From positions 3,162,001 to 3,226,000 of the forward strand of contig NC_013216.1 of assembly GCF_000024205.1 (NCBI RefSeq): a stretch of DNA of 64,000 nt. The letters run 5' to 3'. The notes below the pieces were generated by a model. It was not told the origin of the DNA. It saw nothing but the letters and a program-made list of their open reading frames with translations, and searched no databases. Below, one piece after another: positions 15,095 to 39,135 of this stretch; positions within the stretch are counted from its first letter, which is position 1, and each line of letters begins with the position of its first letter. The stretch comes from Desulfofarcimen acetoxidans DSM 771. Its GTDB lineage: Bacteria; Bacillota; Desulfotomaculia; Desulfotomaculales; Desulfofarciminaceae. The position numbers and the translations under genes are program-made.

Positions 15095-15649
15095 TTATAT
15101 TACACCTTTCAATTGTATCTCTAAACCGTCTAACAAGGGAGATGTCAATGTATTATCTTCACCATAGGACTGAAACAAAATCCAATTTTTTTCACCGGCT
15201 ACAAAAATCTCAATAACTTTATGAACAGGATCAACTATCCAATATTCCTTTACTCCATGCTTGTAATACATTTTACTTTTTTCAACTTTATCATATTTGC
15301 CTGTTGACGGAGACAATATTTCAACCACGAGATCAGGTGTGCCTTGGATATTCATTTCGGTAATAATGTCCAACCGTTCTTTTGAGATAAACACAATATC
15401 AGGCTGAGGTTTTTCTTTTTCACTTAGCAGTACGTCAATAGGCGCACCGTATAATTCGCCAAGATTATTTTTATCAACAAATATTCCGATAGTCTGAAGC
15501 AGCTTTCTGGTTATCTTCTGATGTATCGTTCTCGGTGCCGGAACCAAAATCAATTTCCCTCCAATGAGCTCGTATTGATTGTCATCTTCAATTTTTAAAT
15601 AATCCTCATAGGTAAACAATCTATCAGCTACTTCAATTTGCATAGGCAC
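15095..15649 (-). CDS. Uma2 family (DUF820) restriction-fold nuclease
   Basis: A 184-residue protein of the Uma2 family, a PD-(D/E)XK-fold group greatly expanded in some bacteria. The signature is clear: TYEDYLKIEDDNQYELIGGK near the start, then KPQPDIVFIS (catalytic Asp), PDLVVEILSPSTGKYD (Glu) and KMYYKHGVKEYWIVDP. The biological role of Uma2 proteins is not settled; many behave as mobile, selfish or defence-associated genes. It may be the last gene of the Ter transcript or a separate insertion; about 200 bp, including a decayed radical SAM fragment, separate it from the upstream TerD gene. Confidence 0.88.
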   Translation of the reverse strand: MPMQIEVADRLFTYEDYLKIEDDNQYELIGGKLILVPAPRTIHQKITRKLLQTIGIFVDKNNLGELYGAPIDVLLSEKEKPQPDIVFISKERLDIITEMNIQGTPDLVVEILSPSTGKYDKVEKSKMYYKHGVKEYWIVDPVHKVIEIFVAGEKNWILFQSYGEDNTLTSPLLDGLEIQLKGVI

Positions 15650-15857: not shown

Positions 15858-17159
15858 TTACATAATTTCCACCCCATACATCTCACACAAAGCTTTCAAA
15901 TCATCCCTATATCCCGCTCCAACGGCAGCTAACTTCCATTTACCTTTGTACCGGTAGATCTCTGCTATTATTAATGAATTCTCCATAAGAGCAAAATCCT
16001 TGACTTCGAAATAAAACATCGGTTTCCCTGATTCATCCGATACTTTTATATATACCCTTTCCAGCTGATTAAAATATTGCTGTTTTTTCTTCCCCTCATA
16101 GATAGCCAGAGCTATAACAATTCTCTCATACTGTTGGGGAAGCCTTGATAAATCTATAGAAATTTTCTCCTGCAGGCCTTTTCCCTGTCCCAGAAGTGAT
16201 ATACTGCCATCACTGCTTGACCGGTTACCATAGAAAATAAGGTCTTCATCCCTGATAATTTTTTTGTTGCCCCCTAAAATAAACGCCACAGCATCAATTT
16301 CAATGGGGGCTGCCAATCTATTATCCCAGCCTATGCCGACAAAAATTTTCTTATCTCCGGGATTAAATTGCGATAATTCTATCCGCTGTCCTTTTTTAAG
16401 CACGGGTATTGAGCCGGTTTCTTGAACTAAACCGTAATTTTTATCTGATGGCGTTAACTTTTTATCAACAGCAGGGTCATTGGTATTTACACCGGTATTT
16501 TGATAATATTCAGCCACAGGTTCAGGTGCGCCCTCTGGCAGACAGGCACCTGACGGACTCCAGATCAGCTGACCGTTAGATACGAAAGCACTGCCGGTTA
16601 CTATGGCGTTGACCGGAATGCGCCTGATGAATTTTGACACTAACAAAAAACTTCCGCACAGGATTGAATTTTGAAACAAAGGATTAATTTTTATCAGTAC
16701 TTCCACCGTTCCGGGACCAACCAACTCAGGTTCAATAATTATACCCGCAATATGAGATATTATTTTACAGCTGACCGGCAGAGACAATCTCATCTTAAGT
16801 ATAATTGCCCGGCTGTGAGGTAATTGCCCGAAATTCAGGGAGTCAGGAAAATCCCACACTCCCGATTCGGCTCCAAAACCGGTTACCCTACCCCTTACCT
16901 CCACGTTTTCAACCAATACCCCATAACTGTCCTCTGAACGGATGGCAATATCATTGGAACCCCTGGTTGCCTCCACTTGCAGGTTTTTTAATACGACCCC
17001 TTCTTTTGTGACATCAATAACCGGGCTGCTTCCGGCCCAAATTGTCGTATTGCTTCCTTCTATGGTCACGGGTTTATTTATATTGACAGGCCCCTTGTAT
17101 TCACCCGCTTTCAGCTTTAAACAACCTCCGGTCGTCATACCGTTAATTTGTTCCTGCAA
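15858..17159 (-). CDS. Beta-helix / TerD fusion protein
   Basis: Two parts are visible. Residues 1-100 look like rungs of a right-handed parallel beta-helix (NINKPVTIEGSNTTI, VVLKNLQVEATRG, VLVENVEVRG), as in NosD- or pectate-lyase-like repeats. After a long middle region, residues ~240-433 form a TerD domain (VLKKGQRIELSQFNPG; VGIGWDNRLAAPIEIDAVAF; ALAIYEGKKK; IIAEIYRYKGKWKLAAVGAGY). TerD domains bind calcium. The start is TTG, with a GGCGGTGA site about 12 nt upstream, so the true start is uncertain. It is the last TerD gene of the operon, 57 nt after the kinase. A beta-helix joined to TerD is unusual. Confidence 0.75.
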   Translation of the reverse strand: MQEQINGMTTGGCLKLKAGEYKGPVNINKPVTIEGSNTTIWAGSSPVIDVTKEGVVLKNLQVEATRGSNDIAIRSEDSYGVLVENVEVRGRVTGFGAESGVWDFPDSLNFGQLPHSRAIILKMRLSLPVSCKIISHIAGIIIEPELVGPGTVEVLIKINPLFQNSILCGSFLLVSKFIRRIPVNAIVTGSAFVSNGQLIWSPSGACLPEGAPEPVAEYYQNTGVNTNDPAVDKKLTPSDKNYGLVQETGSIPVLKKGQRIELSQFNPGDKKIFVGIGWDNRLAAPIEIDAVAFILGGNKKIIRDEDLIFYGNRSSSDGSISLLGQGKGLQEKISIDLSRLPQQYERIVIALAIYEGKKKQQYFNQLERVYIKVSDESGKPMFYFEVKDFALMENSLIIAEIYRYKGKWKLAAVGAGYRDDLKALCEMYGVEIM

Positions 17160-17216: not shown

Positions 17217-18635
17217 TTATATACGCAAGAACTGAGTAAGTATTAAGCGTCCGTGGGATTCAGAGGACAAACGCAGTTGCAGCCCTTCTGATAATCTCAC
17301 ATGCTGACCTTTGGGTACCGGTTTTGGATATCCGTTCTCAATTACTTTTAAGTCCATCTCCATGTTATAGAGGTACCAGTTGTTTTCATGGTAAACGAAA
17401 TACCCTTGCGGAGTTTTATCGACATTTTCTCCGGCCCAAATATTATCAAATACATGCCATTTGTAGATATACATGCCATGCCAAACCACCAGCCGGTGCT
17501 TTTCATTTAAGAAATTGCCCGGTTTACCGGGCTGTTCTCTGTAGCAGTGAAGAATGGGTACGAAGGGAAGAGCAATCTTTTGCTTACAAAACGGACAACA
17601 ATAATCCATAGCTTTAGAAAGTACAAACCACTTCATTTCACATTTTTCGTTACTGCAGGGATGAATCAAATCTGCTGTACGCACTAAAGCACTCTCCCAA
17701 TCAAGGGCAGTAGGACGATTATCAGGAGAGTGCAGGGCATGAACAAAGGATTGGGGAATAACCTCGGACAAATATGGTCCCATACATTCATAACCGGTTA
17801 CCAGCTTAGCAGGCCGGTTGGAATGATCCGTCGGGTTCTCTATGAAGAGTGCCTTTTCCCCCAGTGAAAGTTGTTCATCTTCTTCCGCAGAAGACGTGGA
17901 ATTAATCCTGGGGCCTTTTAAAGGGTGCCTGAATAAAAGGGTTTGGTATATTAAAACTGCCAAAGCGTGTAAATCAGTCCTGATCGACGGCTCTGCCGTA
18001 CCCATCAGAACTTCCGGCGCTATCAGGCCCGGAGTGCCGGCAATTTTCGGCGGGTGCAGTCCCGGCACAACCAGACCGTCAACATCAATCATAACTGTGG
18101 AACCGCTGACAGGATCACCCAGGAAATTATTATAGGAAAGATCCGAGTGCGCTAAGCCTGCGGAATGCAGCCTCCTGGTTGACCTGGCCATAGTAATGGC
18201 CATTTTTAAATGTCCAAGCCAGGTGCCCCTTTCAGCGGCCGGCACGAAATTTCTGGTCTTAGGATTTACAAACCAGCTTAACTTCTTCTCTATGCCGTCA
18301 GAGGTAAAGAATTTGGCCGGATAAACAGGAACCTTCACTCCGAGCTTAGGAGATACCACCAGACCGGCAGGCCAGCAATATAAATTGCTCCAATAATCTC
18401 CTGATATTTTATCCCTTGTCGGATTATATTTATTAACGATATGATCAATACGGTCTTTACGCTCCGGGTCTTTCAAGTCAGCTTCATCTTTATAAAACTT
18501 TATTATTGACAACCGGTCAGCGGTAAAGTGAACAATACCTTCACTTCCCTCGCCAATAATCTCAGGCAGGTATTCAAGTTCAGTTCCGTCAATCAAGGTT
18601 GCTACCGGATTTTTTGCTGTTTTTCTCTTAGCCAA
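17217..18635 (-). CDS. TerY-P triad protein kinase with C-terminal zinc ribbon
   Basis: A 472-residue protein kinase-fold enzyme. The glycine-rich loop is IGEGSEGIVHF (27-37), a lysine lies in LSIIKFYKDE, the catalytic loop is HSDLSYNN (163-170) and DVDG (184-187) stands in for DFG. So it is probably active. After the kinase domain comes a four-cysteine zinc ribbon (CSNEKCEMKWF ... CCPFCKQKI, about 328-357) and a beta-rich tail. It starts with TTG behind AGGAGGT. It follows the phosphatase gene by 6 nt. Kinase, PP2C and VWA protein together form the TerY-P triad known from comparative genomics of Ter systems. Confidence 0.85.
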   Translation of the reverse strand: MAKRKTAKNPVATLIDGTELEYLPEIIGEGSEGIVHFTADRLSIIKFYKDEADLKDPERKDRIDHIVNKYNPTRDKISGDYWSNLYCWPAGLVVSPKLGVKVPVYPAKFFTSDGIEKKLSWFVNPKTRNFVPAAERGTWLGHLKMAITMARSTRRLHSAGLAHSDLSYNNFLGDPVSGSTVMIDVDGLVVPGLHPPKIAGTPGLIAPEVLMGTAEPSIRTDLHALAVLIYQTLLFRHPLKGPRINSTSSAEEDEQLSLGEKALFIENPTDHSNRPAKLVTGYECMGPYLSEVIPQSFVHALHSPDNRPTALDWESALVRTADLIHPCSNEKCEMKWFVLSKAMDYCCPFCKQKIALPFVPILHCYREQPGKPGNFLNEKHRLVVWHGMYIYKWHVFDNIWAGENVDKTPQGYFVYHENNWYLYNMEMDLKVIENGYPKPVPKGQHVRLSEGLQLRLSSESHGRLILTQFLRI

Positions 18636-18641
18636 GTATAG

Positions 18642-19979
18642 TTACCTCCTGTGCAAAAATACAATGGTCCGGTCGTCAAAAGAGCCCCTCTTTTCATACC
18701 CCAGCCAATCAACAAGTTTGTCTGCCGGATTTTCTCCCAGAACTATTTGATATACATACTCAAACATTTTCGGCATCATTGTATCTACAGGGAAAAAGTC
18801 GTCGGAAATGCCGTCGGTCATAACAGCTACAGCATCTACCTCCGGCTTGATAGCAAAAAACACCTTATGTTCAAATTCTTTTTCAATGTCCTTAGTGGTA
18901 ATAAATTTTGTTTCACTGGCATACTCACCGCTGTCAGCAACACCCAGAATTGAAACACTGCTGCCGCCATGCCATAAGGCTATTGCCCCGTCCCCCACCT
19001 GAATGCTGGCAATCAAACTTTTACCCATCCACTCACGGTGAACAGCAATTAGCATAGTTGTTGACAAAAGATCAAATTCAATCTTCCTGGCGGCTGCTTC
19101 TTCCTTTAAGGATATAAGGACCTCATGCATTGTATCTACAAGAAAGGTCCGAATTTTTATCAAGTCAGTTTCCTCCGGAATATTTACACCTTCTATTTGC
19201 TTCACTTTATAATCTTTAAGAAATTGTTTTAAGGTTTTAACAGCCATCTCGCAGCCTATTTTTGAACCTACTCTTGATAAACGGCAGGAACCGGCTCCAT
19301 CTGCCGCGGCTAAAATGCTCCAACCGTTTTCAAAATCAAAACCAAAGGAATCATCCCGGTGACTGCCTTCATGGGCATGAGTTTTACCCCGGCGGCTGGC
19401 GGCACAAATCCCCCAGCCATTCCATTCCTTAAAAGCGGAGTCGTTAATTTCAACCCAGTCCTCTTGGTCAGCCGGAGGCAGGTCCCTCCACCGGGGGTAG
19501 ACCACCTCTTCTTCCTTTGGAGCAGGTTTTTCCCGGCTGTCTTTTACCGGAGGTTCCGTTTGCTTTATAACAGACTGCTTATTTTCAGACTGACGGAAGG
19601 ATAAAATTATTTTATCTGTCTGAATTACTTTCTTATCTTTAGTATAATTTAAGTTTAATTTTATATCTCTCGTTGGAAGCAATACGTCCCCTACTATGTC
19701 GTAATCACTACTTTTTATAATCCTGTCATTTTTTGTTTTAATAATCTTATGATTAGGTTTTTCATATAGTTTTTCTGCTTCTGAAAAAAACTCATATATT
19801 GACATACTGCCCGAATTAAGCTTTTCAAGAAGTGTAGTACGGCCGGCATCCGCTGCCTTAACCATTACCAGTTCCCTGGTTTCTTCTATTGTAAAGCCCA
19901 TATCTATAAGTTTTGTTTTCGCCTCATCCATATCAGCTTTGCCGGTATAATATCTTCCTATATTTACAACTAAATTCAT
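18642..19979 (-). CDS. PP2C-family protein phosphatase of the TerY-P triad
   Basis: The C-terminal two thirds (about 170-445) is a PP2C domain. GKTHAHEGSHRDDSFGFD leads into LAAADGAGSC (metal-binding DG), followed by VAVMTDGISDDFF and the final SFDDRTIVF with a metal aspartate. The first ~170 residues are a separate region (helical start with DMGFTIEETRELVMV, then basic beta-rich DRIIKSSDYDIVGD). ATG start behind AAAAGGGGG. It likely counteracts the kinase encoded 6 nt downstream, with shared substrates in the Ter complex. Confidence 0.87.
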   Translation of the reverse strand: MNLVVNIGRYYTGKADMDEAKTKLIDMGFTIEETRELVMVKAADAGRTTLLEKLNSGSMSIYEFFSEAEKLYEKPNHKIIKTKNDRIIKSSDYDIVGDVLLPTRDIKLNLNYTKDKKVIQTDKIILSFRQSENKQSVIKQTEPPVKDSREKPAPKEEEVVYPRWRDLPPADQEDWVEINDSAFKEWNGWGICAASRRGKTHAHEGSHRDDSFGFDFENGWSILAAADGAGSCRLSRVGSKIGCEMAVKTLKQFLKDYKVKQIEGVNIPEETDLIKIRTFLVDTMHEVLISLKEEAAARKIEFDLLSTTMLIAVHREWMGKSLIASIQVGDGAIALWHGGSSVSILGVADSGEYASETKFITTKDIEKEFEHKVFFAIKPEVDAVAVMTDGISDDFFPVDTMMPKMFEYVYQIVLGENPADKLVDWLGYEKRGSFDDRTIVFLHRR

Positions 19980-20041: not shown

Positions 20042-20701
20042 CTAGGGAATAATTTGAATTGTTGGCGGAGGTGCGGGCAGGTTAGTCGGCTGGTCACTGT
20101 CTTTGGTAAATTTAATACTCGCCTGCTTTACTGATTGTGAAACCCACCGGAAAAACTGTTTAAAATCTTCAGGTTGATAGGAAGACATCAGCAAAACAAT
20201 ATCGGTTATTTTTTTCAGGGTATCTGTATTAACATCCGGTCCACAGCCAACTGCCACAATGTTAGCCACCTTACCGGACTTCTGTTTAATTTCCCGGGCG
20301 GCATTTTCCCAATCATCTGTTGGCTCACCATCTGTCATTATAAATACAAGCGGCTTATAGTCACCTTTTTGTGTTGGTGTGGATTTGCGAACTTCATTGT
20401 CAAAGCAGTTATTTAAGATATGGAGCGCGGCACCCAGAGATGTAGTGCCGTTAGCTTCAATTTGTGGTTCTTTAAAAGCGGCCAATTCCGTTAACTGAAC
20501 ATCCTGCCTTGCATCGCTGCCAAAGGTAATTACAGAAATATAAGCGGTTTCAATAGCCTGGGGCTCCTTTTTGAGTTCCGAAATCATATATTTTACACCC
20601 TGCTTCACTGCCTCTATCGGTTCCCCAAACATTGAACCTGACCTGTCAAGTAATAAGTAAACCGGCAGCCTTCTGCTGAGACCTTCAACTTCATTAAACA
20701 T
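20042..20701 (-). CDS. terY: TerY-like von Willebrand factor A protein
   Basis: A VWA-domain protein of about 219 residues. The MIDAS metal site is complete: DRSGSM near residue 19, a Thr in ANGTTSLGAAL and Asp in FIMTDGEPTDDW. The C-terminus ends in a proline-rich tail (NLPAPPPTIQIIP). I place the start at the ATG at 20701, behind AGGGGGAA. TerY proteins are thought to act as metal-dependent scaffolds for TerD-family proteins. It heads the VWA-PP2C-kinase triad, 62 nt upstream of the phosphatase. Confidence 0.9.
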   Translation of the reverse strand: MFNEVEGLSRRLPVYLLLDRSGSMFGEPIEAVKQGVKYMISELKKEPQAIETAYISVITFGSDARQDVQLTELAAFKEPQIEANGTTSLGAALHILNNCFDNEVRKSTPTQKGDYKPLVFIMTDGEPTDDWENAAREIKQKSGKVANIVAVGCGPDVNTDTLKKITDIVLLMSSYQPEDFKQFFRWVSQSVKQASIKFTKDSDQPTNLPAPPPTIQIIP

Positions 20702-20847
20702 CAAATATTCCCCCTGTTGTTTTTTGTTTTATAAACACGGTCTTTGGGCAACATGCAATAAGGTTCTTTACATAGCGATCTGCTAATCTTCCTGTCCCCG
20801 GCTTCTCCTGATTCTTAATAGATGCGTCCCTTAAACCCGCCGCAGAT

Positions 20848-22104
20848 TTACTTGCGGCCGGATGTCCAGCTCATATTCCAATTAAAGGCTCTGTCCATTT
20901 CTTTATGACCGGCAAAATAGCTGACCAATCGCTCTACACTGAAGGTTTCATTGTTAACATTTTCAATCATAGCTATTGCGCACATGATCTTTCTGTTATC
21001 GTGCTCATCCAGCTTTACTATAATATCCGGCCCTCCGGGCTGTTTAACAGTAACAACTCCGTCAGCTTCAGCCCAGCAGGCAACGCCTTGATAAATAAAG
21101 CTATATACCAGTATTCTTTTAAACTCATGAATAAAGTTTCCGTTAATCCTGATGTTTTCCCCCGTACTTACAGCACCCGTCCGATCATCACCGTCAAGAG
21201 CGATATAGGGATAGTTTTGATAACTGCCAAAAGATTTGCCAAGAGCCTGAATAGCCCCCTTATTTCCATTTTTCATTTCAATCAGGCAACCAAGGTCAAG
21301 ATCAATACCACCATTTTTACCGCTGCCAAATAAAGAACCTAAAAATCCTTTGGGCTGAGATTTTTTTCCCTGGTTCCAGTTAAGGTTAATCAGAATTTCC
21401 CCTAATTTACCTTCCGCCTTCTTTTCAAGATTGATTTTCTGTCCGACTTTAGTCAGTTCTATTTTTTGCAGATTGATTCTTGCAGATTTTTGCACCGGTT
21501 TTTCTTGTGTCGCTGCAGTTTCCTTCTGAGATTGATTAGATGGTCGGTCATTGACCTGGATGCCAAAACCACCGCACAGGGCAGCAAGTCCACCCTGGTA
21601 GCCCATGGCGATAGGATTAAACTTCCACTCCCCTTTATGCCGGTAAAGTTCCGCTACCACTATAGCAACTTCTTCATTAAAATCCCTTCCCATCTCAAAC
21701 CTTACCATTTCCTCGTTGCTTTGGGTTGCCACCCGCAGATAGGAACTTGACACTTGATTAAATTTATGGCCTCTTGCCGGCCCCTCATAAATCGTTAAAG
21801 TAAAGGCTATTTTTTCAACATCTTCCGGTATTAAATTAATATCTATTAAAAACTGAGCCTTGTCGCTTGATCTTACAATATCTGTATTGACGGTAATAGC
21901 ACGACCTCTTCCGCTAGGATTTCCATAAAATACGAAATCTTCATCACCCCGGCATTTACCGTTTGACTGGAGTAAGAAAGCGGCTGCATCAACTTCAATG
22001 TTGGTGTTACCCATGTCCCAACCAAGGCCAACTAAAAAACTCCTGACTCCAGGGTGATTTTTGGTTAAATCCGTTTTCTGTCCCCTCATAATCAATTGAC
22101 TCAA
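20848..22104 (-). CDS. TerD/TerA-like tandem-domain protein
   Basis: I choose the TTG at 22104 (SQLIMRGQKTDLTKN): AGGTGA lies 5 nt upstream, and the sequence then matches the family start. The frame is open to 22146. The first ~195 residues are a TerD domain (VGLGWDMGNTNIEVDAAAFL, calcium-site aspartates; AELYRHKGEWKFNPIAMGY). A Gln/Lys-rich linker follows, then a TerA-like second domain (EILINLNWNQGKK; GIDLDLGCLIEM; DGDDRTG) that ends with a basic tail. TerA-type proteins carry such a second, divergent TerD fold. Member of the Ter operon. Confidence 0.87.
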   Translation of the reverse strand: MSQLIMRGQKTDLTKNHPGVRSFLVGLGWDMGNTNIEVDAAAFLLQSNGKCRGDEDFVFYGNPSGRGRAITVNTDIVRSSDKAQFLIDINLIPEDVEKIAFTLTIYEGPARGHKFNQVSSSYLRVATQSNEEMVRFEMGRDFNEEVAIVVAELYRHKGEWKFNPIAMGYQGGLAALCGGFGIQVNDRPSNQSQKETAATQEKPVQKSARINLQKIELTKVGQKINLEKKAEGKLGEILINLNWNQGKKSQPKGFLGSLFGSGKNGGIDLDLGCLIEMKNGNKGAIQALGKSFGSYQNYPYIALDGDDRTGAVSTGENIRINGNFIHEFKRILVYSFIYQGVACWAEADGVVTVKQPGGPDIIVKLDEHDNRKIMCAIAMIENVNNETFSVERLVSYFAGHKEMDRAFNWNMSWTSGRK

Positions 22105-22263
22105 GTTTATCACCTCAATGTAAAGTACCGGTAAAGACCATGACATTTAACTCCCGTATTAAAACATCCCCCTAAATCAGCTTCTTTTGATAATCAGCAA
22201 ATTCTGCCGTCCCACTATAATCATGTCGAAGATTATTCAAGAAAATTGCTTTATGCGACTCTA

Positions 22264-22414: not shown

Positions 22415-22990
22415 TTAAGCGTCCAAGCCATAGAGTCTAACCAATCCCTGCAAGCCATCATTAAAACCTTGACCTACAGCTGCAAACTTCCACTCTGTTC
22501 CCTTACGATATAGCTCACAGAAAACCAATGCAGTTTCAATACTGTAATCTTCCGATAAGTCATAACGGAGTAATTCTTGATTGTAGGCATCATCAACTAC
22601 TCGAACAAATGCGTTGGATACAAGACCGAAGTTTTGACCACGTTCTTGAGCCATATGAATAGTAACAGTAATGGCTATTTTTTGTATATTGGCGGGAATT
22701 TTAGAAAGATCAATGGTAATTTGCTCATCGTCACCTTCTCCGTCACCGGTAAGGTTGTCCCCCATGTGTTGAACTGAACCGCTCTTGTGGGTAAGGTTAT
22801 TATAAAACACAAAATCATCAGGGCTTGCGCACTTACCGTTATCACCTAACAGAAAAGCGGAAGCATCCAGGTCAAAATCAGGACCGTCAAATTTGTTAGT
22901 ATCCCAACCAAGCCCTACAACTACCTTGGAAAGACCTTCTCTACCCTTTGTTAAATCAACCTTTTGCCCTTTTTGTAAATTAACAGCCAT
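22415..22990 (-). CDS. terD: TerD family calcium-binding stress protein
   Basis: A full-length 191-residue TerD/TerE-type protein. It starts [19 protein letters not shown], as the family does. The calcium-binding stretch [19 protein letters not shown] is intact, with a second acidic loop [14 protein letters not shown] and the C-terminal [20 protein letters not shown] motif. Such proteins are linked to tellurite, phage and metal-stress responses. It lies between the candidate peptide gene and the TerD/TerA gene and is bracketed by an inverted repeat. It is the most canonical TerD of the four. Confidence 0.95.
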
Positions 22991-23023
22991 TTTTTTACCC
23001 CCTTATAAACAAAGTTATAACAG

Positions 23024-23058
23024 TAATTTCCGTTGAATACGAGTGCCTGTAGCTGCTC
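23024..23058. repeat. Right copy of the 35-nt inverted repeat flanking terD
   Basis: Reverse complement of 22264-22298 with 4 differences in 35 nt. It lies in the 135-nt gap between the candidate peptide gene and terD, just left of a short palindrome at 23061-23079. Confidence 0.7.
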
Positions 23059-23060
23059 AA

Positions 23061-23079
23061 AAGTCGTTTAAAACGACTT
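23061..23079 (-). terminator. Perfect palindrome between peptide gene and terD, possible attenuator
   Basis: AAGTCGTTTAAAACGACTT is a perfect 19-nt hairpin sequence. On the minus strand it is followed by TTGAG, with few T residues, so at most a weak terminator. It could set the ratio of peptide to terD transcript, or act as an RNA-processing site. Confidence 0.4.
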
Positions 23080-23125
23080 ACGAGCTCATATTGCTTATTA
23101 TCATCCGGCTTAATCATCTTCGTAT

Positions 23126-23260
23126 TTATAAATCCTCTTCATAGTGATCCCACTCCTCCCAACCATCTACGTCAGTATAGTTATTCCAACCATCAGATGC
23201 AGATAATTCAGAAGCAACTAATCTCCTTGCAATATCATTCTCAATGTTGCTGCTACCCAC
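23126..23260 (-). CDS. Candidate radical-SAM RiPP precursor peptide (44 aa)
   Basis: This gene is shorter than usual gene-calling limits. The start is the GTG at 23260, with AAAGGAGG placed 8 nt upstream, one of the best ribosome binding sites in the operon. It begins GSSNIENDIARRLVASELSA, a helical leader-like segment with a conserved-looking LVASELSAS stretch. It continues with DGWNNYTDV and DGWEEWDHYEEDL. The tail has three Trp and two Tyr spaced among Asn, Asp and Glu, in two DGW-led halves. That fits aromatic-x-N/D motifs modified by cyclophane-forming radical SAM/SPASM enzymes. It overlaps the 3' end of the radical SAM gene by 43 nt in another frame, which also argues for coupled expression. 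The product and modification are inference. Confidence 0.7.
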   Translation of the reverse strand: MGSSNIENDIARRLVASELSASDGWNNYTDVDGWEEWDHYEEDL

Positions 23261-24321
23261 AACCACGACCTCCTTTCTGCATTTACATTTTTTTCTCGTA
23301 CTGTTTGAACCAAATTAGAGATATCCCGGAAGAACATTTTTTTCTCTAAACACACTCCTTCCAGCCTTTCCGCCCCGGCACATGCATTACGACAGAGGGC
23401 GGTAAAGAAGCAGTCGCTGCAGGAAGGCGGTAATTTATGCTGCTTGATTACCTGCCCAGCCTTTCTGTAGATATCATTTAAATCGTCCAGCAGGATATTT
23501 CCTAACTTAAGATACATAGAACTACCATGCAGGCACTCGCAAGGGTATACATCGCCATTTGGCCTTACGGTCAAAAATCTCTTACAGTCACCAAGGTAAC
23601 GACAAAGACGTGATTTGCCACGGATAAAATAATTCAAGGTACTGTCGATGGTGCGAATTTTGAGTGAAGCATCATCCAGTTTAAGCCACTGGTTAAAAAT
23701 GCTTCTTATAAAACCGTAATATTCTTCAGTTGAAAGCCCACCGTCCGGTGCTTTGTACCTTAAAAAGTCAAGCTTTTTAACCCCAAGCAAAATAAATTCT
23801 TCCAACAAATTTTCACTGTGTTCCAGCATTTCAGGAGTTACAACTGCCAGTAATCCCCCACAAAGCCGGTCATTTTTAGTCTCTCGCATCTTTGATAAGG
23901 TAGTCAATATATTTTTGAAGGACCCGTTACCGGCAATGGTTTTGCGATTTATATCATGGCAGGTAGGACCGTCACAGGAAATCCCCACTCTGAACCCGCT
24001 CCCGGAAAACCAGGCATACCAGTCCTCGTCCAACAATAAGCCATTAGTCTGCAGAGTATTTAAGATTTTATTGTGCTCACCCCTGAATCTCTTCTGGCAG
24101 GAAACCACCTCTTCATAAAAACTGATTCCCCTTAGCAAAGTTTCCCCGCCATGCCAGCAAAACTGCACACGGGAAGTAGCGGCTAAAGCCTTTTGTGTCA
24201 AAGATTCTACTACTGAAAGGTCCATGTCCTCATCGGTCTTTTCTTCATAACAGTAACTGCAAGCAAGATTGCAGCGTGTCGTAACTTTTACAATGAAACA
24301 AATTTGCTTATCATCCATCAT
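23218..24321 (-). CDS. Radical SAM/SPASM peptide-modifying enzyme
   Basis: A 367-residue radical SAM enzyme. The cluster motif is CNLACSYC (Cys17, 21, 24), followed by QFCWHGGETLL (SAM-binding GGE) and the CDGP segment. The C-terminal part is a SPASM domain: CKRFLTVRPNGDVYPCECLHG, then CSDCFFTALCRNACAG and a late Cys, for auxiliary Fe-S clusters. This arrangement is that of anaerobic sulfatase-maturase-like and peptide (RiPP) maturases. It overlaps the M48 peptidase stop by 11 nt upstream and the candidate precursor peptide start downstream. The likely substrate is therefore that peptide. No sulfatase gene is in the window. Confidence 0.88.
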   Translation of the reverse strand: MMDDKQICFIVKVTTRCNLACSYCYEEKTDEDMDLSVVESLTQKALAATSRVQFCWHGGETLLRGISFYEEVVSCQKRFRGEHNKILNTLQTNGLLLDEDWYAWFSGSGFRVGISCDGPTCHDINRKTIAGNGSFKNILTTLSKMRETKNDRLCGGLLAVVTPEMLEHSENLLEEFILLGVKKLDFLRYKAPDGGLSTEEYYGFIRSIFNQWLKLDDASLKIRTIDSTLNYFIRGKSRLCRYLGDCKRFLTVRPNGDVYPCECLHGSSMYLKLGNILLDDLNDIYRKAGQVIKQHKLPPSCSDCFFTALCRNACAGAERLEGVCLEKKMFFRDISNLVQTVREKNVNAERRSWLWVAATLRMILQGD

Positions 24322-25609
24322 ATACCCTCATACTTTCCGGCAAAGAAGAGCAGCCTGAACATTTCTCAACAACCTTCCGGTATATACCGTTATTAACCCA
24401 TTTATCCATTTCGCTTGCTCTCATAACCGTCCAGGGGTGATCGGCAAACATAATGCTTAGATATTTAGCCATGGTGTTCATCTTATCATCATCCATTCCT
24501 TCGAACTCCCTGGCCTGTTCCAGAAAATCGGCAGGATTTAAAGCCTTGTAATACCTCATAGGGGCACCTGCTATCTTCATCATCGCGGATACAGCAGCAT
24601 TAATGTTCTGACATGCCAAAAGACCACCCCTGTCTGCCGTATACTCAGACTTGCGGTACCAGTTAAGAAGAGCCACCTGGAGTCCGGAACCAACCAGAGA
24701 ACCTATAGCGCCCATTAGGCCGCTAATAAATGGGAATATCTGGGCTATTTGATGATAGAGCATATGCTCGCTCTTGATATGAGCAACTTCATGTCCTAAC
24801 AAAAACAGCAGCTCATCATAAGACAACAAGCTAATAGCCGCCGACTTAATCACTACAATAGGATTTTCAACTCCCACTGTAAGGGCATTAATAAAACCCT
24901 GCTCCACATAAAATTCCGGTATTTTCCCTACATTCAAGACTTCACAGACAGTCAACAGCGCCCTGTATAATTGAGGAAAGTTCCTGGTTGTTACCTTGAT
25001 GTTACTGCCGGAATAAACTACCCGGTATAGTTTATCAAGACCATGCTCATTTACTTTTCGAACCAATTTATCAATACCCGGGATCTTTGAGAGAGCTTCC
25101 ATGGCCGCTGTATCCTGGGGGTGTTCATACTCGGTCTTTGATAAGCCGTGAAGAATTCGTTTTTTTATATAGCACCCTTCCTGTACTGCTCCATAAGTCG
25201 TATCTTCCGCCCATTTCTGAAATTCTTCGCAGGGGTTTAATATGCACTCTAAAAGCGATGACTCGTCAATCCATTTTTTATAATGAGCCCTCCGCATTGA
25301 ACGCATATAATAGGCAACAAAATCATCCGATACTAAAAAAACATCCCGGATGCTTTTTATATCGGCATCCTCCAAAAGGTTGCGATCCCGCAAGAGAACA
25401 TACATATGAAAATATGTCATTAATAAAAGCTTCTGGTTGGAAGTTAACAGCTGAGCCTCATGCTTTAATGTGTTAAAGCTTAAATCCACGCTGGTTCCTT
25501 TTTGGGTAAGAACAGGTTTTAACCTGTTAATTAAGTAGGTCCTATCCTCAGAAGAAGCTGCGTAGTAGAAAGACATGGTTACAATTCGAGCAAATGACAG
25601 TTCATCCAT
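24311..25609 (-). CDS. M48 family zinc metallopeptidase
   Basis: A 432-residue protein with a C-terminal M48 peptidase domain. The zinc motif is HEVAH at 273-277 (FLLGHEVAHIKSEH), and the third ligand is Glu322 in SEYTADRGG. A hydrophobic segment, IFPFISGLMGAIGSLVGSGL (about 291-310), is probably membrane-associated. The first 180 residues are a helical domain resembling TerB- or stress-associated regions, but I cannot name it. ATG start behind GAGGTGG. It lies 9 nt after a TerD gene and overlaps the radical SAM gene. It could be the protease that trims the modified peptide; this is inference. Confidence 0.85.
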   Translation of the reverse strand: MDELSFARIVTMSFYYAASSEDRTYLINRLKPVLTQKGTSVDLSFNTLKHEAQLLTSNQKLLLMTYFHMYVLLRDRNLLEDADIKSIRDVFLVSDDFVAYYMRSMRRAHYKKWIDESSLLECILNPCEEFQKWAEDTTYGAVQEGCYIKKRILHGLSKTEYEHPQDTAAMEALSKIPGIDKLVRKVNEHGLDKLYRVVYSGSNIKVTTRNFPQLYRALLTVCEVLNVGKIPEFYVEQGFINALTVGVENPIVVIKSAAISLLSYDELLFLLGHEVAHIKSEHMLYHQIAQIFPFISGLMGAIGSLVGSGLQVALLNWYRKSEYTADRGGLLACQNINAAVSAMMKIAGAPMRYYKALNPADFLEQAREFEGMDDDKMNTMAKYLSIMFADHPWTVMRASEMDKWVNNGIYRKVVEKCSGCSSLPESMRVYDG

Positions 25610-25618
25610 TGTTCCACC

Positions 25619-26284
25619 TCAACGCCCAAAAATGGAAGTATCCACGATGCCCATGGACATCTGGCTTTTTTCATATTCATTTTTTTGCCGGTTGTTAATG
25701 AAAGTATCAATTCGAGCCAAGTGTTTTAATATAGCCAACTCTTCTTTTTTAGATGAAAAAATACTATTCTTTATTTCTACTCCATAGCTAGCGCATAAAG
25801 CCTCAAAACCACCGGCAAACCCACTCCCTATTGCAGATAGCTTCCAACTTTCATTGTGCCGGTACAATTCGGCAATTACAAGAGCCGTATCTCCACTTTC
25901 TTCACTTATACTGAAATATGCGATATCTTTTCCGTTTTCCAGATTGCACAGCTTAAAGGTCAAGGAGGGGATTTTATTTGAGGTTTTTTTTGCAGCCAAG
26001 CCCAAAATGATTTTTTGAACCAAAGGCGATACCTTATCGAGATGTACATTAACTCGCCGGTTGTTCTCCGATGTAAAAAAAACTGATTGATCGCTATTAC
26101 TCAAATTGTCATAATATAAAAAGTCCCTGGTATTTCTGACTCTCCCGGAGATGTCTGTAAGTAAGACTGCCCCCAAAAAATCATTTGCGGGAGTATTTAA
26201 GGATAAGCACATTGCGATGCTTTTTAATCCTTGATCAAGCTTATAAAGATCAATTTTTTGTCCTTTGATTAAACTTATAGCCAT
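25619..26284 (-). CDS. TerD-family protein with C-terminal coiled tail
   Basis: First gene of the Ter operon. It starts MAISLIKGQKIDLYKLDQGL as TerD proteins do and has the closing motif ALVIAELYRHNESWKLSAIGSGF. The calcium-binding segment is degraded: where others have GWD...DxDA this has SLNTPANDFLGAVLL, so metal binding is doubtful. About 50 additional residues after the TerD fold (KKEELAILKHLARIDTF) look helical. The ATG has AGGTGAGG upstream. It is followed after 9 nt by the M48 peptidase gene, so it may be specialised for that peptide-processing part. Confidence 0.85.
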   Translation of the reverse strand: MAISLIKGQKIDLYKLDQGLKSIAMCLSLNTPANDFLGAVLLTDISGRVRNTRDFLYYDNLSNSDQSVFFTSENNRRVNVHLDKVSPLVQKIILGLAAKKTSNKIPSLTFKLCNLENGKDIAYFSISEESGDTALVIAELYRHNESWKLSAIGSGFAGGFEALCASYGVEIKNSIFSSKKEELAILKHLARIDTFINNRQKNEYEKSQMSMGIVDTSIFGR

Positions 26285-27746: not shown

Positions 27747-27931
27747 CTAATTTATCAGTCCTGATGCATCAATGGTTATAGGCAAAAACCTATCTTCTAA
27801 AACCTGCATAAGTTCTTTTGCATTATAAATTTTAAGGTTTTCTAGTCCAACCAAATCTAGGCGGTGTGTCATAGGAACAATATATTCTTCACCCGATTCC
27901 GATAATATATACCCTACCCTAGTTTTTATAT
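27747..27931 (-). pseudogene. Truncated gene at the trailer end of the array
   Basis: The last ~60 codons of an unrecognised gene (VGYILSESGEEYIVPMTHRL; NAKELMQVLEDRFLP) end at 27747, and the frame runs upstream straight into the leftmost repeats. There is no start or ribosome binding site outside the array. The array's trailer end therefore seems to have cut into, or replaced, the 5' part of an older gene. The frame stays open only because the repeat itself translates as ETVTFDVLK. Confidence 0.5.
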
Positions 27932-30900
27932 ATTTCAATACATCAAATGTGACGGTTTCCCTGTCCTTGGGCGGTGGGTTGTGACTACGATAGTTATATT
28001 TCAATACATCAAATGTGACGGTTTCCCGAAACGAAAAGCGGAAATGAAAAAGTTCTCGAAAAAAATTTCAATACATCAAATGTGATGGTTTCCCGAAACG
28101 AAAAGCGGAAATGAAAAAGTTCTCGAAAAAAATTTCAATACATCAAATGTGATGGTTTCCCCAGTGTACTTGAATGGCCTGCACCAAAGTTTGAGATATT
28201 TCAATACATCAAATGTGACGGTTTCCCTTGGACAACCGGCCATGCCGGAGATATAAACAGCTATTTCAATACATCAAATGTGACGGTTTCCCTTTTGGTG
28301 CTGCTAGGAGTTCCATAATTACAATGGTATTTCAATACATCAAATGTGACGGTTTCCCATTACTGTTAATTTTGAAGGCGATTTAGTTTTCTTCATTTCA
28401 ATACATCAAATGTGACGGTTTCCCTTACAAGCCAGCGCTGGTAGTCTAAACTATCAATATTTCAATACATCAAATGTGACGGTTTCCCGCCGGAAACTTG
28501 TCGGCAAAATTACGGCGTAAATCATTTCAATACATCAAATGTGACGGTTTCCCCCTTTAAAGCCTTGTGGTGCCTGTGTAGTTTTTCGAATTTCAATACA
28601 TCAAATGTGACGGTTTCCCACGGACAGAATGTGCGAAGGGAGGTGAAAAAAGGTATTTCAATACATCAAATGTGACGGTTTCCCAGATAATCGCAAAGTA
28701 TGCGGTGATGCCAGTTAACTATTTCAATACATCAAATGTGACGGTTTCCCTCACTGACCTACAACCTTCTGTAACCCACCAACCAAATTTCAATACATCA
28801 AATGTGACGGTTTCCCTTTTTTTACATCAATTATAACATTAATGAAGTTAATTATTTCAATACATCAAATGTGACGGTTTCCCCAGTCCGGTGTTAAGGA
28901 ACAAATTTATTTTGTTGTATTTCAATACATCAAATGTGACGGTTTCCCTTTTGATTATGAGGTGATAATATGCTTTCTATCTTATTTCAATACATCAAAT
29001 GTGACGGTTTCCCATGGCCAGGACCTCCGGAGCCGAACCGGAAAGAAACATTTCAATACATCAAATGTGACGGTTTCCCACCAAGCACCATTGTAACAAA
29101 CACAATAAGTGCCATATTTCAATACATCAAATGTGACGGTTTCCCTCACTGACCTACAACCTTCTGTAACCCACCAACAAGATTTCAATACATCAAATGT
29201 GACGGTTTCCCGAAAAATATTTCGTTGGTGATTGTATTATGTTCGTAATTTCAATACATCAAATGTGACGGTTTCCCTTTTATTAAGCTTGTCTTGCTCA
29301 CGCTTAATATCGGATTTCAATACATCAAATGTGACGGTTTCCCTCGCATTTCCCACACATCAAAATATCCTCAGGACGTATTTCAATACATCAAATGTGA
29401 CGGTTTCCCCCCTCATGTGCAATAGATTTCTAGAAAATTATATCAATTTCAATACATCAAATGTGACGGTTTCCCTTTTGTGGGTTTTTTCGCTGAATAG
29501 CCATGGCATAATTTCAATACATCAAATGTGACGGTTTCCCCGTTCCTGTTTTCGCAACATATCAGACAAATTCTCTATTTCAATACATCAAATGTGACGG
29601 TTTCCCCTATAAACCTGGCACTAGGATAATCAAAACCAAAGAAATTTCAATACATCAAATGTGACGGTTTCCCGTCAGTCCCTGGGTATTGTCCTAACCG
29701 GTTCCTTTAATTTCAATACATCAAATGTGACGGTTTCCCAATAAAGAAAGGCGTAGCTTCGAAGGTAGCTAGTTATTTCAATACATCAAATGTGACGGTT
29801 TCCCTTTACTTCGGTATACTGGCATACTAAAAGTATACCAATTTCAATACATCAAATGTGACGGTTTCCCTTTTAGCACTCATAGCTATTTTAATTCCTG
29901 TTGGCTATTTCAATACATCAAATGTGACGGTTTCCCAATTTAGGAACAACTAAACCTAAATTATAAAACCTGATTTCAATACATCAAATTTGACGGTTTC
30001 CCACGTATATGGATGGTGGCAAAAGCGGAAAAAAAAGATTTCAATACATCAAATGTGACGGTTTCCCAACAGAGGGCAGAGGTTACTGTTTGGGAGGTAA
30101 GTATTTCAATACATCAAATGTGACGGTTTCCCTTGATAGGGGGGGTTATAAGTGTTAGCTTTAATTACATTTCAATACATCAAATGTGACGGTTTCCCTT
30201 TCCGGAGTTCGTTTATTAGGTGTCTTATCAGCAAATTTCAATACATCAAATGTGACGGTTTCCCTCCTAAGCCTTATATTTAAAGGATTTTCAAGTCAAA
30301 ATTTCAATACATCAAATGTGACGGTTTCCCCAGCTTGTTGGCCAAACTGCACAGGATGTTATTGTATTTCAATACATCAAATGTGACGGTTTCCCCCCTT
30401 CAAATTCGGATTACAGGCAATATAATACAAAATTTCAATACATCAAATGTGACGGTTTCCCATAGAAGGTGAACAAATACCTTTAGATTGGTATTCATTT
30501 CAATACATCAAATGTGACGGTTTCCCCAACCTGGGCAGCAGCCTTGGCATCATGCTGATATATTTCAATACATCAAATGTGACGGTTTCCCTTGCGCCTG
30601 TTAATGAAGCTCAGGCGATTGTTCCTTATTTCAATACATCAAATGTGACGGTTTCCCTACCCTTCCTCATGCCAGCGTTCATAACGTGAAACTATTTCAA
30701 TACATCAAATGTGACGGTTTCCCGTTTTTCATCCAACTGTTATGATGGTCAGTATTTCTTATTTCAATACATCAAATGTGACGGTTTCCCTCACTGACCT
30801 ACAACCTTCTGTAACCCACCAAACAAATTTCAATACATCAAATGTGACGGTTTCCCTGCTGGCGCAAAATAATACCCGGGAAGGTGATTTCAATTTCAAT

Positions 30901-33900
30901 ACATCAAATGTGACGGTTTCCCGAAATTAAAGCATATGTGGAGGCAGAGCTTAGGGATTTCAATACATCAAATGTGACGGTTTCCCAACCAATTGACCAA
31001 CGCAAAAAAATCAGAACTGCTATTTCAATACATCAAATGTGACGGTTTCCCGTGGATCTTTAAATATAACTACAGATGCTAATGAAAAATTTCAATACAT
31101 CAAATGTGACGGTTTCCCTCAGGGACTTCATGTTACTAACCGACTGGAACCGTGATTTCAATACATCAAATGTGACGGTTTCCCAAAAAACAAAGGATGG
31201 TAAGTACCATCCTTAAGAGGATTTCAATACATCAAATGTGACGGTTTCCCAACGCCAAAATTATCATATATTGGACAATCATTAAAATTTCAATACATCA
31301 AATGTGACGGTTTCCCTACCATTTTAAAATTAACTATGTAAACTTTTCATTCATTTCAATACATCAAATGTGACGGTTTCCCATTCGTAATATAAATAAA
31401 TATGAGTGCTATTGTGTAATTTCAATACATCAAATGTGACGGTTTCCCATAAGAATTTTCTCCTGTTCATCTGTCGGCAGAGCATATTTCAATACATCAA
31501 ATGTGACGGTTTCCCTTAACAGCCTCAGACACTGTAATATTTAATGATTTATTTCAATACATCAAATGTGACGGTTTCCCTTGATAACCTATTAACCAAC
31601 TGGATAATATCTGTAAAATTTCAATACATCAAATGTGACGGTTTCCCGTACTTCTTAAACACCATATTACTACACACAAAGTGATTTCAATACATCAAAT
31701 GTGACGGTTTCCCAGAGGGTTAGCAAGCAAATACAGGTATCATTATACCATTTCAATACATCAAATGTGACGGTTTCCCCTTTTAACTTTTACCTTTTTT
31801 ACAATCTCTAACCAACATTTCAATACATCAAATGTGACGGTTTCCCTATCCAGCATTCTTCATCTTGATCGTATTCAACTGAATTTCAATACATCAAATG
31901 TGACGGTTTCCCTTATCCAGCATTCTTCATCTTGATCGTATTCAACTGAATTTCAATACATCAAATGTGACGGTTTCCCTTTTTCTTTTCAAGCAAAAAC
32001 TTTGCAGCCTCCAATATTTCAATACATCAAATGTGACGGTTTCCCACAGAATGAAAGATTTTAGACTAAATATGGGTAAATATTTCAATACATCAAATGT
32101 GACGGTTTCCCTTTAATTAATACCCAAATATAAGGAGGTCATACAAATTTCAATACATCAAATGTGACGGTTTCCCAAAAAAGAAAGCTCCCGGTTATGG
32201 AATTATACCTAAATTTCAATACATCAAATGTGACGGTTTCCCGAAGTTGAAATTGGTAACATGAGTAACATTAATAAATTTCAATACATCAAATGTGACG
32301 GTTTCCCCAGTATCGCGGGTCAAGATTACCGGAAGGTGCTACATTTCAATACATCAAATGTGACGGTTTCCCTTATTGTATTTATGCTTAATAACCGTAC
32401 CCATAAAAGATTTCAATACATCAAATGTGACGGTTTCCCCTGATATTGAAACAATGCTTAAAAAGACATTATGCAAATTTCAATACATCAAATGTGACGG
32501 TTTCCCCTAGAAATGTTCAAGAATTTTGCCGCAAGATTATGACATTTCAATACATCAAATGTGACGGTTTCCCTTATATATTTGATTGCTAATACTGGTA
32601 TTAGAAGAGGATTTCAATACATCAAATGTGACGGTTTCCCGATAATGAATAGAATATAATTATAATTGTTCACACATTTCAATACATCAAATGTGACGGT
32701 TTCCCTAATATTTTCATTAGATTCCTTCTTATTGATTGTTATTTCAATACATCAAATGTGACGGTTTCCCAGAATCTGGAGAATTAATTAACGTAATGTA
32801 TCAAGGATTTCAATACATCAAATGTGACGGTTTCCCGGCATGGCGCGGATGCCTGGGGTTGGAACCAACGCATTTCAATACATCAAATGTGACGGTTTCC
32901 CCAGGGAAGCTTATATAATAAGTGTGTTTGGGTTGTGATTTCAATACATCAAATGTGACGGTTTCCCTTGATAGTGCTGATATAAGTATTAGCCGCTACT
33001 TTAATTTCAATACATCAAATGTGACGGTTTCCCCCGGAAGAAACGCATTTTTTAAGGTATTTGAGGCATATTTCAATACATCAAATGTGACGGTTTCCCC
33101 CATAAGCCGGTGTAGTTAAAAAAGGAGGTGTTTTATTTCAATACATCAAATGTGACGGTTTCCCGGGATGTCAGAAATGATTTTGAGCAACACATTAACC
33201 GATTTCAATACATCAAATGTGACGGTTTCCCATATTTCGTTAACGAACCCGTGCTAGCTAGAATAACATTTCAATACATCAAATGTGACGGTTTCCCTAC
33301 TCAGGCGGTGATGAACCGTTTAAATGCTATGGCATTTCAATACATCAAATGTGACGGTTTCCCCCTACCATATAGCAAAACAGAAGCTTACATTGACACA
33401 TTTCAATACATCAAATGTGACGGTTTCCCTTGTTAGCGCATTCAGTACATAAGACAAAAATGCCAATTTCAATACATCAAATGTGACGGTTTCCCTTACG
33501 ATTCGGAGGCTATTAAAGAGCAGTCAGTAAGATTTCAATACATCAAATGTGACGGTTTCCCAATGCGGAACGGTAAAATATACACATTTCCATACAGATT
33601 TCAATACATCAAATGTGACGGTTTCCCTCAAACCAATCGTAAAACCATTTATAATCATTAGGTAATTTCAATACATCAAATGTGACGGTTTCCCTTAATT
33701 TTAAAATTGGTAATTTAAGCATTACTTTCAAATTTCAATACATCAAATGTGACGGTTTCCCAGTACCCCTTATCGTAACTTTGTAACAATAAAGCTTAAT
33801 TTCAATACATCAAATGTGACGGTTTCCCTGCCATATAAATGTTCATTTCCTCCGGAACTACATTTATTTCAATACATCAAATGTGACGGTTTCCCAGAAC

Positions 33901-36900
33901 ACGGAAACGAGTTTTGAGGGAGGGGTTAAAAATTTCAATACATCAAATGTGACGGTTTCCCGGCGTTATATAATGCCTGCTCCATGCGCTTATGGCATTT
34001 CAATACATCAAATGTGACGGTTTCCCAAACTTAAGGCTAAAGATGGATTGAAAGCGGAACTATTTCAATACATCAAATGTGACGGTTTCCCTATTCTGAC
34101 TGGCACACCACTATCACAGGGGGTAGTATTTCAATACATCAAATGTGACGGTTTCCCTTTCACCTTTACATATCTTTGAAATATAAGAATGATATTTCAA
34201 TACATCAAATGTGACGGTTTCCCTTTTTGGTATCTTAAAGGTAACTTCGCTGTACCTGAATTTCAATACATCAAATGTGACGGTTTCCCCTGCTATTCAA
34301 TCGGGGTAGTTGCAGGGGAAATTGAATTTCAATACATCAAATGTGACGGTTTCCCTATCCTGCTTGGCTGCTGATATATTCACCTTTTGGAATTTCAATA
34401 CATCAAATGTGACGGTTTCCCCATCTAAATTGCTCATTTCCTTAACGACCCACCACTATTTCAATACATCAAATGTGACGGTTTCCCGACTTAAGAGGAT
34501 TTTTAATGTATCTTGGGAAGCCAATTTCAATACATCAAATGTGACGGTTTCCCGCCCTGATTGTGGCGGTGGGCCTGGATATTTAGAGGGATTTCAATAC
34601 ATCAAATGTGACGGTTTCCCTGTTGCCAGGCAGCAGTGCAGGCAGCTAGTCCTGAAATTTCAATACATCAAATGTGACGGTTTCCCTCAGCAGCAGTCCA
34701 GAAAAGTATCTGGTAATACTCAATTTCAATACATCAAATGTGACGGTTTCCCCGACATACAGAAAAGGTTTGTGGGATTGGTATACTTATTTCAATACAT
34801 CAAATGTGACGGTTTCCCTATACCATTTTGAGGAGGAGATACGATGCCTTTATTATTTCAATACATCAAATGTGACGGTTTCCCGGGGTTGCAGGAAATC
34901 AGGGTTTCCAGCCTAATACAATTTCAATACATCAAATGTGACGGTTTCCCAGCAGGGAGGTAATTATAACAGCAAATCTAATTGGATTTCAATACATCAA
35001 ATGTGACGGTTTCCCCATCGTCGGTAATGCGGTTATCCTCACCAATTTCCAATTTCAATACATCAAATGTGACGGTTTCCCCTCTCCCCGGCCGGTTACT
35101 TACTGTATATAGAAAAACATTTCAATACATCAAATGTGACGGTTTCCCTTCAAAATAGACCGTATCATGGATTACCGAAGGAATATTTCAATACATCAAA
35201 TGTGACGGTTTCCCGTAGTCGTACATCATGTTTATGTTGCAGTAAGCTTTATTTCAATACATCAAATGTGACGGTTTCCCTGTGCAGGGGCCTTTTTTAA
35301 ATTCCATGACAGCGGGAATTTCAATACATCAAATGTGACGGTTTCCCCTTAAAGATATGGAATACAGAATTGAATATCAAACATTTCAATACATCAAATG
35401 TGACGGTTTCCCGAAATATCCACTTGATTTGTTATCTGAAGCTATTGAATTTCAATACATCAAATGTGACGGTTTCCCTTCACCGTCATCTTTGCGCGTG
35501 TCTTTCCAGCCGATATTTCAATACATCAAATGTGACGGTTTCCCTGATACCGACATGGTCGTTAGAAACTTGCTCCATCTATTTCAATACATCAAATGTG
35601 ACGGTTTCCCTTCCGAGAATATTTTGCAGATACAGGCTGCCGGTGAATTTCAATACATCAAATGTGACGGTTTCCCCCGAGAAGGTGCCTGCTGCATGGT
35701 GAGGTGGGCAGCAATTTCAATACATCAAATGTGACGGTTTCCCGGGGCAGGGGCAACCTTATTCCCAGACGATCAGCTGATTTCAATACATCAAATGTGA
35801 CGGTTTCCCGGTGTCGGATAAAGAATACTACGAAAAACGCAGAATATTTCAATACATCAAATGTGACGGTTTCCCGGGTGACGGAGAAGCCGGAACAGCA
35901 ATGATTAACGGATTTCAATACATCAAATGTGACGGTTTCCCGGACTTGCCCCCGGTTACAGTAAAACTGCCGGACGGATTTCAATACATCAAATGTGACG
36001 GTTTCCCCTGAATTAATTGAGGCACTATACAATGCTTTTGTGTATTTCAATACATCAAATGTGACGGTTTCCCACTACCGCCGCAAGTGGCATAACGGTG
36101 CCCAACCTAAATTTCAATACATCAAATGTGACGGTTTCCCGAAACGTGAAATAACTGGTCTAATTGAGGTAAAGCCATTTCAATACATCAAATGTGACGG
36201 TTTCCCGAGCTATCACGAGATAGTATACAAGCTTCGTATGGGATTTCAATACATCAAATGTGACGGTTTCCCCTCTAAAGTCAACACTTGAAGAAATGGC
36301 TTCAATTGTATTTCAATACATCAAATGTGACGGTTTCCCGGATACATATCTCCAGCCTCTTGCCAAATAGAATCCCATTTCAATACATCAAATGTGACGG
36401 TTTCCCGACCATCAAAGCATCCAGATCCTCCAATATTAAATAAATTTCAATACATCAAATGTGACGGTTTCCCCAAATAGAAAAATATTCCCTTAGCAAT
36501 GGGGATTGTAATTTCAATACATCAAATGTGACGGTTTCCCACGAAACAATGGATTTAACTGGTGCAACTAATACGTATTTCAATACATCAAATGTGACGG
36601 TTTCCCGGTTATTTTCCCACTGCAGACGGAAGCTGATCTGCTATTTCAATACATCAAATGTGACGGTTTCCCTAAAACACTCTGATGGGTAAATATAATC
36701 AAAAATAATTTCAATACATCAAATGTGACGGTTTCCCGAAATATTGGTCAGCGGTACGCTAACATGAACATTATTTCAATACATCAAATGTGACGGTTTC
36801 CCAAGGTGAAATTCAAGTCCTGGCTAATAACAATGCCGCATTTCAATACATCAAATGTGACGGTTTCCCGGGACTGTTTGTAGCGCATTTCGCCACTATA

Positions 36901-37658: not shown

Positions 37659-37832
37659 CAACGCAAATTGGACATTTTATTTCTTAAGATATTCCTCTAT
37701 AAGGCATTATATCAGGCCTTTACATTTATTTTTCCAAGTGATACCCACTTTCAAAAAAATAAATCCAAAGTCCTCTCCCCTCCTATTTTCAAGCGCTTTA
37801 CACTATTAATATATAATCTTACTTGGAAAAAA
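37659..37832 (-). promoter_or_regulatory. Leader of the I-B array
   Basis: AT-rich 174-bp stretch between the cas2 stop and the first repeat. On the minus strand it contains TATAAT at 37706-37711 (CCTGATATAATGCC), about 48 bp before the first repeat, a reasonable -10 box for array transcription, though no strong -35 is seen. Its position beside the most uniform repeats and the adaptation genes marks it as the insertion end. Confidence 0.8.
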
Positions 37833-39121: not shown

Positions 39122-39135
39122 CCTCCATCCCTCCT

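Follow-up and report, generated by a model that had tools for sequence, protein, structure and literature searches.

A 44-codon open reading frame that overlaps the end of a radical SAM/SPASM gene in a Ter operon of Desulfofarcimen acetoxidans DSM 771 is almost certainly a real protein-coding gene, and its sequence and neighbourhood suggest that it most likely encodes a RiPP precursor, one whose core is unusually conserved and for which no dedicated exporter is present. The adjacent enzyme probably modifies this peptide by one chemistry or another. That the modification is aromatic cross-linking of the three-residue type, that the product serves inside the cell, and that the genes form a small RiPP cassette on Ter stress operons is a reading that the comparison of sequences somewhat favours. 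The gene lies in the window, by which we mean the whole 64,000-nt stretch analysed (positions 3,162,001 to 3,226,000 of NC_013216.1), and coordinates are those of the window unless a locus is named. Its parts are as follows.

23269-23276, minus strand: ribosome-binding site AAAGGAGG, with GGAGG 8 nt before the GTG, a spacing equal in the homologue
23126-23260, minus strand: gene of the 44-aa precursor-like peptide, GTG start, stop codon included; its homologue shows synonymous-only change in the core
23195-23260, minus strand: leader-like part, residues 1-22, conserved only at SNIExxxARRLxxSE
23135-23191, minus strand: core GWNNYTDVDGWEEWDHYEE, residues 24-42, with 9 synonymous and 0 amino-acid changes relative to the homologue

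The frame runs on the minus strand from the GTG at 23260 to the stop codon at 23126-23128 and translates as MGSSNIENDIARRLVASELSASDGWNNYTDVDGWEEWDHYEEDL. Another in-frame GTG, at 23266, is a less likely start because its spacing to the AAAGGAGG motif is only 2 nt. The peptide gene shares 43 nt with the radical SAM frame (23218-24321), which in turn overlaps the frame of the preceding peptidase by 11 nt; both overlaps are in keeping with translational coupling. The original prediction had reported the GTG start, the well-spaced ribosome-binding motif, the overlap and the peptide sequence, and all of these are as claimed, at matching coordinates. A real precursor gene can thus hide within the tail of its enzyme's gene.

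We searched 113 genomes of the class and found one homologue besides the window itself (E 3e-17), in a second species (genome G056). It occupies L009:7429-7563, has 44 codons and an ATG start, and its protein is 70% identical; an AAGGAGG motif precedes it, with GGAGG 8 nt from the start as in the window. Two members of the family are known, one of them beside a dead enzyme. Leader residues 2-22 are 48% identical (dN 0.39), and within the 19-residue core GWNNYTDVDGWEEWDHYEE the 9 nucleotide differences between the two genes are all at synonymous third positions. The two genes differ at 12 nucleotides in tail codons 23-44, with 1/0/11 of them at codon positions 1/2/3. Amino-acid changes, both of them D/E swaps, affect only 2 of these codons; random placement of the differences altered 8.6 codons on average, and none of ~20,000 such placements gave as few as 2. 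When dN was compared between the window and G056, the tail (0.04) proved to be the best-conserved stretch of the cassette, ahead of TerD2 (0.11), the M48 peptidase (0.24) and the radical SAM enzyme (0.37). As synonymous change is saturated over the whole cassette, the conserved tail reflects long-term selection. A pattern with selection on the overlapping enzyme frame only had been named as a refutation; we see the reverse, with selection on the peptide frame. In the window, leader codon 15 contains the end of the enzyme frame (23218), and the tail starts at 23194; in G056 that frame stops at L009:7404, which leaves 24 nt before the peptide start, and the frames do not overlap. Since the tail lies wholly outside the enzyme frame and the overlap is missing from G056, that frame cannot explain the conservation. 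In the window, the overlap seems to have arisen secondarily, through an extension of the enzyme at its C terminus.

The peptide gene is part of a cassette that stands before a TerY-P operon in the window:

25619-26284, minus strand: terD1, TerD-domain protein, first cassette gene
24311-25609, minus strand: M48 metallopeptidase, 432 aa, with HEVAH and EYTAD motifs, candidate leader peptidase
23218-24321, minus strand: radical SAM/SPASM enzyme, 367 aa, with CNLACSYC (residues 17-24), CX9GX4C (246) and CX2CX5CX3C (301)
22415-22990, minus strand: terD2, TerD protein, 88% identical to the one encoded at the equivalent place of the homologous locus
20848-22146, minus strand: 432-aa TerD-domain protein
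20042-20704, minus strand: TerY-like von Willebrand factor A (vWA) protein
18642-19979, minus strand: PP2C-type phosphatase
17217-18635, minus strand: protein-kinase-like protein of the TerY-P triad, scoring 30.2, just under the Pfam cutoff of 31.7

TerD proteins are found here with vWA, PP2C and kinase-like genes in a single operon, as in known Ter stress systems with the TerY-P triad, to which this locus adds the peptidase-radical SAM-peptide cassette. A possible NosD-like/TerD fusion protein (15858-17159) lies at the end of the Ter operon and is followed by a gene that we labelled Uma2-like by eye (15095-15649). The cassette order terD1–M48 peptidase–radical SAM/SPASM–peptide–terD2 is the same in both loci, although in G056 the cassette precedes a terD-terD-terD-terC type operon. 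The short frame is thus conserved in a related Ter/radical SAM locus, beside a radical SAM/SPASM gene and terD. Fifteen class genomes carry a close relative of terD2. The cassette was found within 1.5 kb of it in two of them (the window genome and G056) and was missing within that distance of the terD2 orthologues in the 13 others; the window genome has in addition a separate Ter operon of canonical type (L099) that lacks the cassette. On this distribution the cassette behaves like an accessory element that goes with terD.

In the window enzyme the radical SAM motif and both SPASM cluster motifs are intact, so three clusters are expected. The profiles on which it scores best are those of sulfatase maturases and of the enzymes that mature dynobactin, darobactin and cyclophanes, but it stays below the cutoff of every curated maturase family; against the curated 3-CyFE families GrrM, FxsB, XyeB, YhhB and AmcB it scored 52-112 bits, compared with cutoffs of 310-450. 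The nearest solved structure is that of an anaerobic sulfatase maturase (PDB 4k37), followed by the radical SAM enzyme ChlB, and single-sequence structure predictions gave pLDDT values of 34-36, too low to be relied on. An RRE-like peptide-binding region in the enzyme, whose prediction had been suggested as a check, was not identified: no RRE-type Pfam match was obtained and there is no N-terminal extension. With its core beginning near residue 13 of 367, the enzyme leaves no space for an RRE at the N terminus.

The tail can be read as the triplets WNN, YTD, VDG, WEE, WDH and YEE, in which each Trp or Tyr takes the first place. All five tail aromatics fall in one mod-3 register (P=0.004 for a register chosen post hoc), and a nine-residue duplication may explain part of this signal. 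The links made by published triceptide enzymes always run from residue i to residue i+2, with Asn, Asp or Arg as partner of Trp, Asn or Ser of Phe, Asp or Arg of Tyr, and Ala or Arg of His (PMC11002830). With Asn, Asp, Arg, Ser or Ala at i+2 as the mark of such a motif, WNN and YTD qualify, and both are invariant in the two members of the family. For WEE, WDH and YEE, with Glu or His as acceptor, no precedent was found among the published triceptide motifs searched. Of the five motifs originally suggested as possible sites of modification, WNN and YTD therefore have published counterparts, and the other three lack a precedent there. Like the known triceptide systems (XncB, OscB/GrrM, MscB, YxdB, HaaB, YhhB), this locus has a short peptide beside a radical SAM/SPASM enzyme of similar size, and its WNN and YTD match the described Trp-Cbeta(Asn/Asp) and Tyr-Cbeta(Asp) links (PMC11002830). 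It differs from them in an enzyme that scores far under the family cutoffs, in the undescribed WEE, WDH and YEE, in an invariant core and in its Ter context.

Considered as a precursor gene, the frame is short and real, encodes a leader and a C-terminal core, and lies beside an enzyme gene in two loci, in one of which the enzyme has decayed. The SNIE...ARRL helix would guide the SPASM enzyme to the peptide, and the enzyme would link aromatics to the residue two places on inside the triplet tail. The likeliest links would be Trp25-Asn27 and Tyr28-Asp30, with Trp34-Glu36, Trp37-His39 and Tyr40-Glu42 as further possibilities. The M48 peptidase, a candidate for leader removal because it is the sole protease of the cassette and carries HEVAH and EYTAD, would then cut off the leader. 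The product probably functions intracellularly, together with the TerD/TerY-P machinery (effector, metal ligand or cofactor), and not as a diversifying antibiotic. In RiPP antibiotics it would be unusual for the core to be more conserved than its enzyme, as it is here, and this counts against the RiPP reading. Also counting against it are the small family of two known members, the failure to identify an RRE and the lack of precedent for Glu and His as acceptors. The same comparison, which involves two sequences, makes a fixed internal function likelier than that of a secreted antibiotic, since the operon has no transporter and its enzymes vary more than the core does. The fullest form of the proposal is that an invariant acidic-aromatic peptide, cross-linked into up to five three-residue rings, some of them on Glu or His, is, as a metal ligand or cofactor, a working component of a Ter complex for stress or defence within the cell and not a secreted antibiotic; we think this possible, if doubtful. 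Cross-linking as proposed would add Glu and His to the acceptors of radical cyclophane chemistry and would give an example of a RiPP used within the cell.

Alternatively, the enzyme could modify the peptide by other chemistry, for example by epimerisation, by a darobactin-like ether or Trp-Trp link, or by a PqqA-like Glu-Tyr link on the way to a redox cofactor. ExxxY is the PqqA motif. It is present in the tail (E36-x-x-x-Y40), and an invariant core would suit a cofactor. The maturases DynA, DarE and DarW, whose substrates are Trp-rich peptides, are among the closest-scoring SPASM enzymes besides the cyclophane makers and give the next-best profiles after that of the sulfatase maturases. No core similarity to their substrates was seen in the window peptide, the scores lie far below the cutoffs (the window enzyme being under that of every curated maturase family), and the operon has no exporter genes. 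Nor does the operon hold PqqB/C/D-like partners, and we regard such chemistry as unlikely.

The state of the G056 locus bears on whether the peptide is modified at all. Three internal deletions have hit terD1, the peptidase and the enzyme there (L009:6132-7404). What remains is residues 1-88 and 189-221 of TerD1, residues 1-146 of the peptidase, whose catalytic half is gone, and residues 43-178 and about 320-344 of the enzyme, which has lost the CxxxCxxC motif and most of SPASM. The peptide gene and terD2 have been left untouched, and the locus clearly illustrates how a biosynthetic unit decays step by step. An intact peptide beside a truncated enzyme and peptidase also fits a peptide that needs no enzyme, for instance a small, acidic, unmodified partner of TerD proteins that contains DxDG and binds metal or calcium, in which case the radical SAM enzyme would have a different substrate. 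Favouring this are the many Asp, Glu and His residues of the tail and the position of the peptide directly upstream of terD2 in both loci. Calcium binding, however, needs no aromatic triplets, and the loop is not a canonical EF-hand. Furthermore, because the G056 remnants of terD1, the peptidase and the enzyme contain no stop codons, the deletions are probably young relative to the species split; the peptide may simply not have been lost yet, and most of its conservation would have accumulated while the enzyme worked. As the second species' enzyme is dead, the pairing of enzyme and peptide is an argument from shared cassette ancestry and not from two working copies, and in the common ancestor the peptide adjoined the enzyme. 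Taken together, these points make an unmodified peptide quite unlikely, and a peptide modified by its neighbour remains our preferred reading.

The enzyme could also be the genome's divergent anaerobic sulfatase maturase (anSME), with the peptide next to it by coincidence. It is the most sulfatase-maturase-like protein of the genome (204 bits with TIGR03942; the next scores 99), it shares the cysteine arrangement of anSME, and anSME gives both its best profile and its closest structure. The genome encodes one CCPSR-motif sulfatase and no FGE above cutoff. This sulfatase (L087, G000:C1:2234037-2235191) was noted in a genome in which no maturase or FGE exceeds the curated cutoffs. The TIGR03942 cutoff, however, is 349 bits, well above the score of the window enzyme, and the five homologues tested that are true maturases, with the usual Asp, score 400-502. 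After the SPASM cysteine the window enzyme reads YPCE, so that Glu replaces the conserved Asp, whereas C-D is found in 19 of the 20 readable homologues, those five included. The only other Glu case among the 20, L012, has 272 bits and is likewise below the cutoff. In addition, the enzyme gene is ~0.95 Mb from the sulfatase gene, the neighbouring peptide has no C/S-x-P/A-x-R motif, and the terD-M48-peptide cassette is common to a second species. The window enzyme is, by these comparisons, a relative and not a member of the sulfatase-maturase family, and a role as the genome's maturase, even a moonlighting one, is very improbable. Its nearest relative (L012/L097) has as neighbours a regulator, a second radical SAM gene and a transporter, with neither TerD nor a visible precursor among them. 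The G517 locus L098, which carries this relative with its Glu after the SPASM cysteine, has two tandem radical SAM/SPASM genes (L098:4036-6397) by a regulator and an MFS-like transporter, and no precursor was seen there. Finally, the frame might have been a chance ORF where the enzyme gene ends, given that it overlaps a gene and that many short ORFs have a ribosome-binding-like site. This reading is ruled out by the synonymous-only codon pattern of the core, the conserved start context, an enzyme frame that misses the tail and the lack of overlap in G056.

That a RiPP inside a TerD/TerY-P locus is not a standard description, as originally suggested, agrees with the literature covered, in which we found no work joining TerD with a radical SAM-modified peptide; the main 2012 paper on Ter systems lay outside that coverage. 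The claim needs qualifying, as systems built around vWA proteins offer a partial precedent. In the vWA-MoxR-FtsH ternary conflict systems, a radical SAM enzyme has been proposed to modify a separately encoded peptide effector (PMC7159879). These systems, likewise regulatory operons containing vWA, are the closest conceptual precedent (PMC7159879), but the operon here has TerD, TerY, PP2C and a kinase in place of MoxR and FtsH, and the lineages differ. In the parts available of a 2014 survey of RiPPs in anaerobes (PMC4289311), other D. acetoxidans loci are given and this one is not mentioned. For TerD/TerY-P systems, a conserved and probably cross-linked peptide would be a concrete molecule to purify and test.

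We looked for further relatives of the peptide in scans of genome contigs, plasmids, phages and viral contigs, and in 398 genomes drawn from the phylum or from the class to which the nearest enzyme relative belongs, and found none; the genomes searched are a sample, and pattern-based scans are insensitive for a 44-aa query. Absence from the genome contigs is weak evidence, since the peptide scan there returned no G056-like record either. With the N-terminal region of the M48 peptidase as query, the phylum sample gave general M48 matches only. Weak peptide matches in G265 and G203 were set aside, as by eye they resemble small acid-soluble spore proteins.

Two further observations concern the surrounding DNA. 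The 135-nt gap between the peptide gene and terD2 (22991-23125) contains a stem, AAGUCGUUUUAAACGACUU, that could have a role in mRNA processing or attenuation; it is not significant against shuffled sequences (z -1.66), and no Rfam family matched the gap. The window also holds a very large CRISPR array, which extends from 27931 to 40000 and possibly beyond and has about 150 copies of ATTTCAATACATCAAATGTGACGGTTTCCC at a spacing of ~66 nt. A few of its spacers recur nearly unchanged, for example at 28720, 29115 and 30760.
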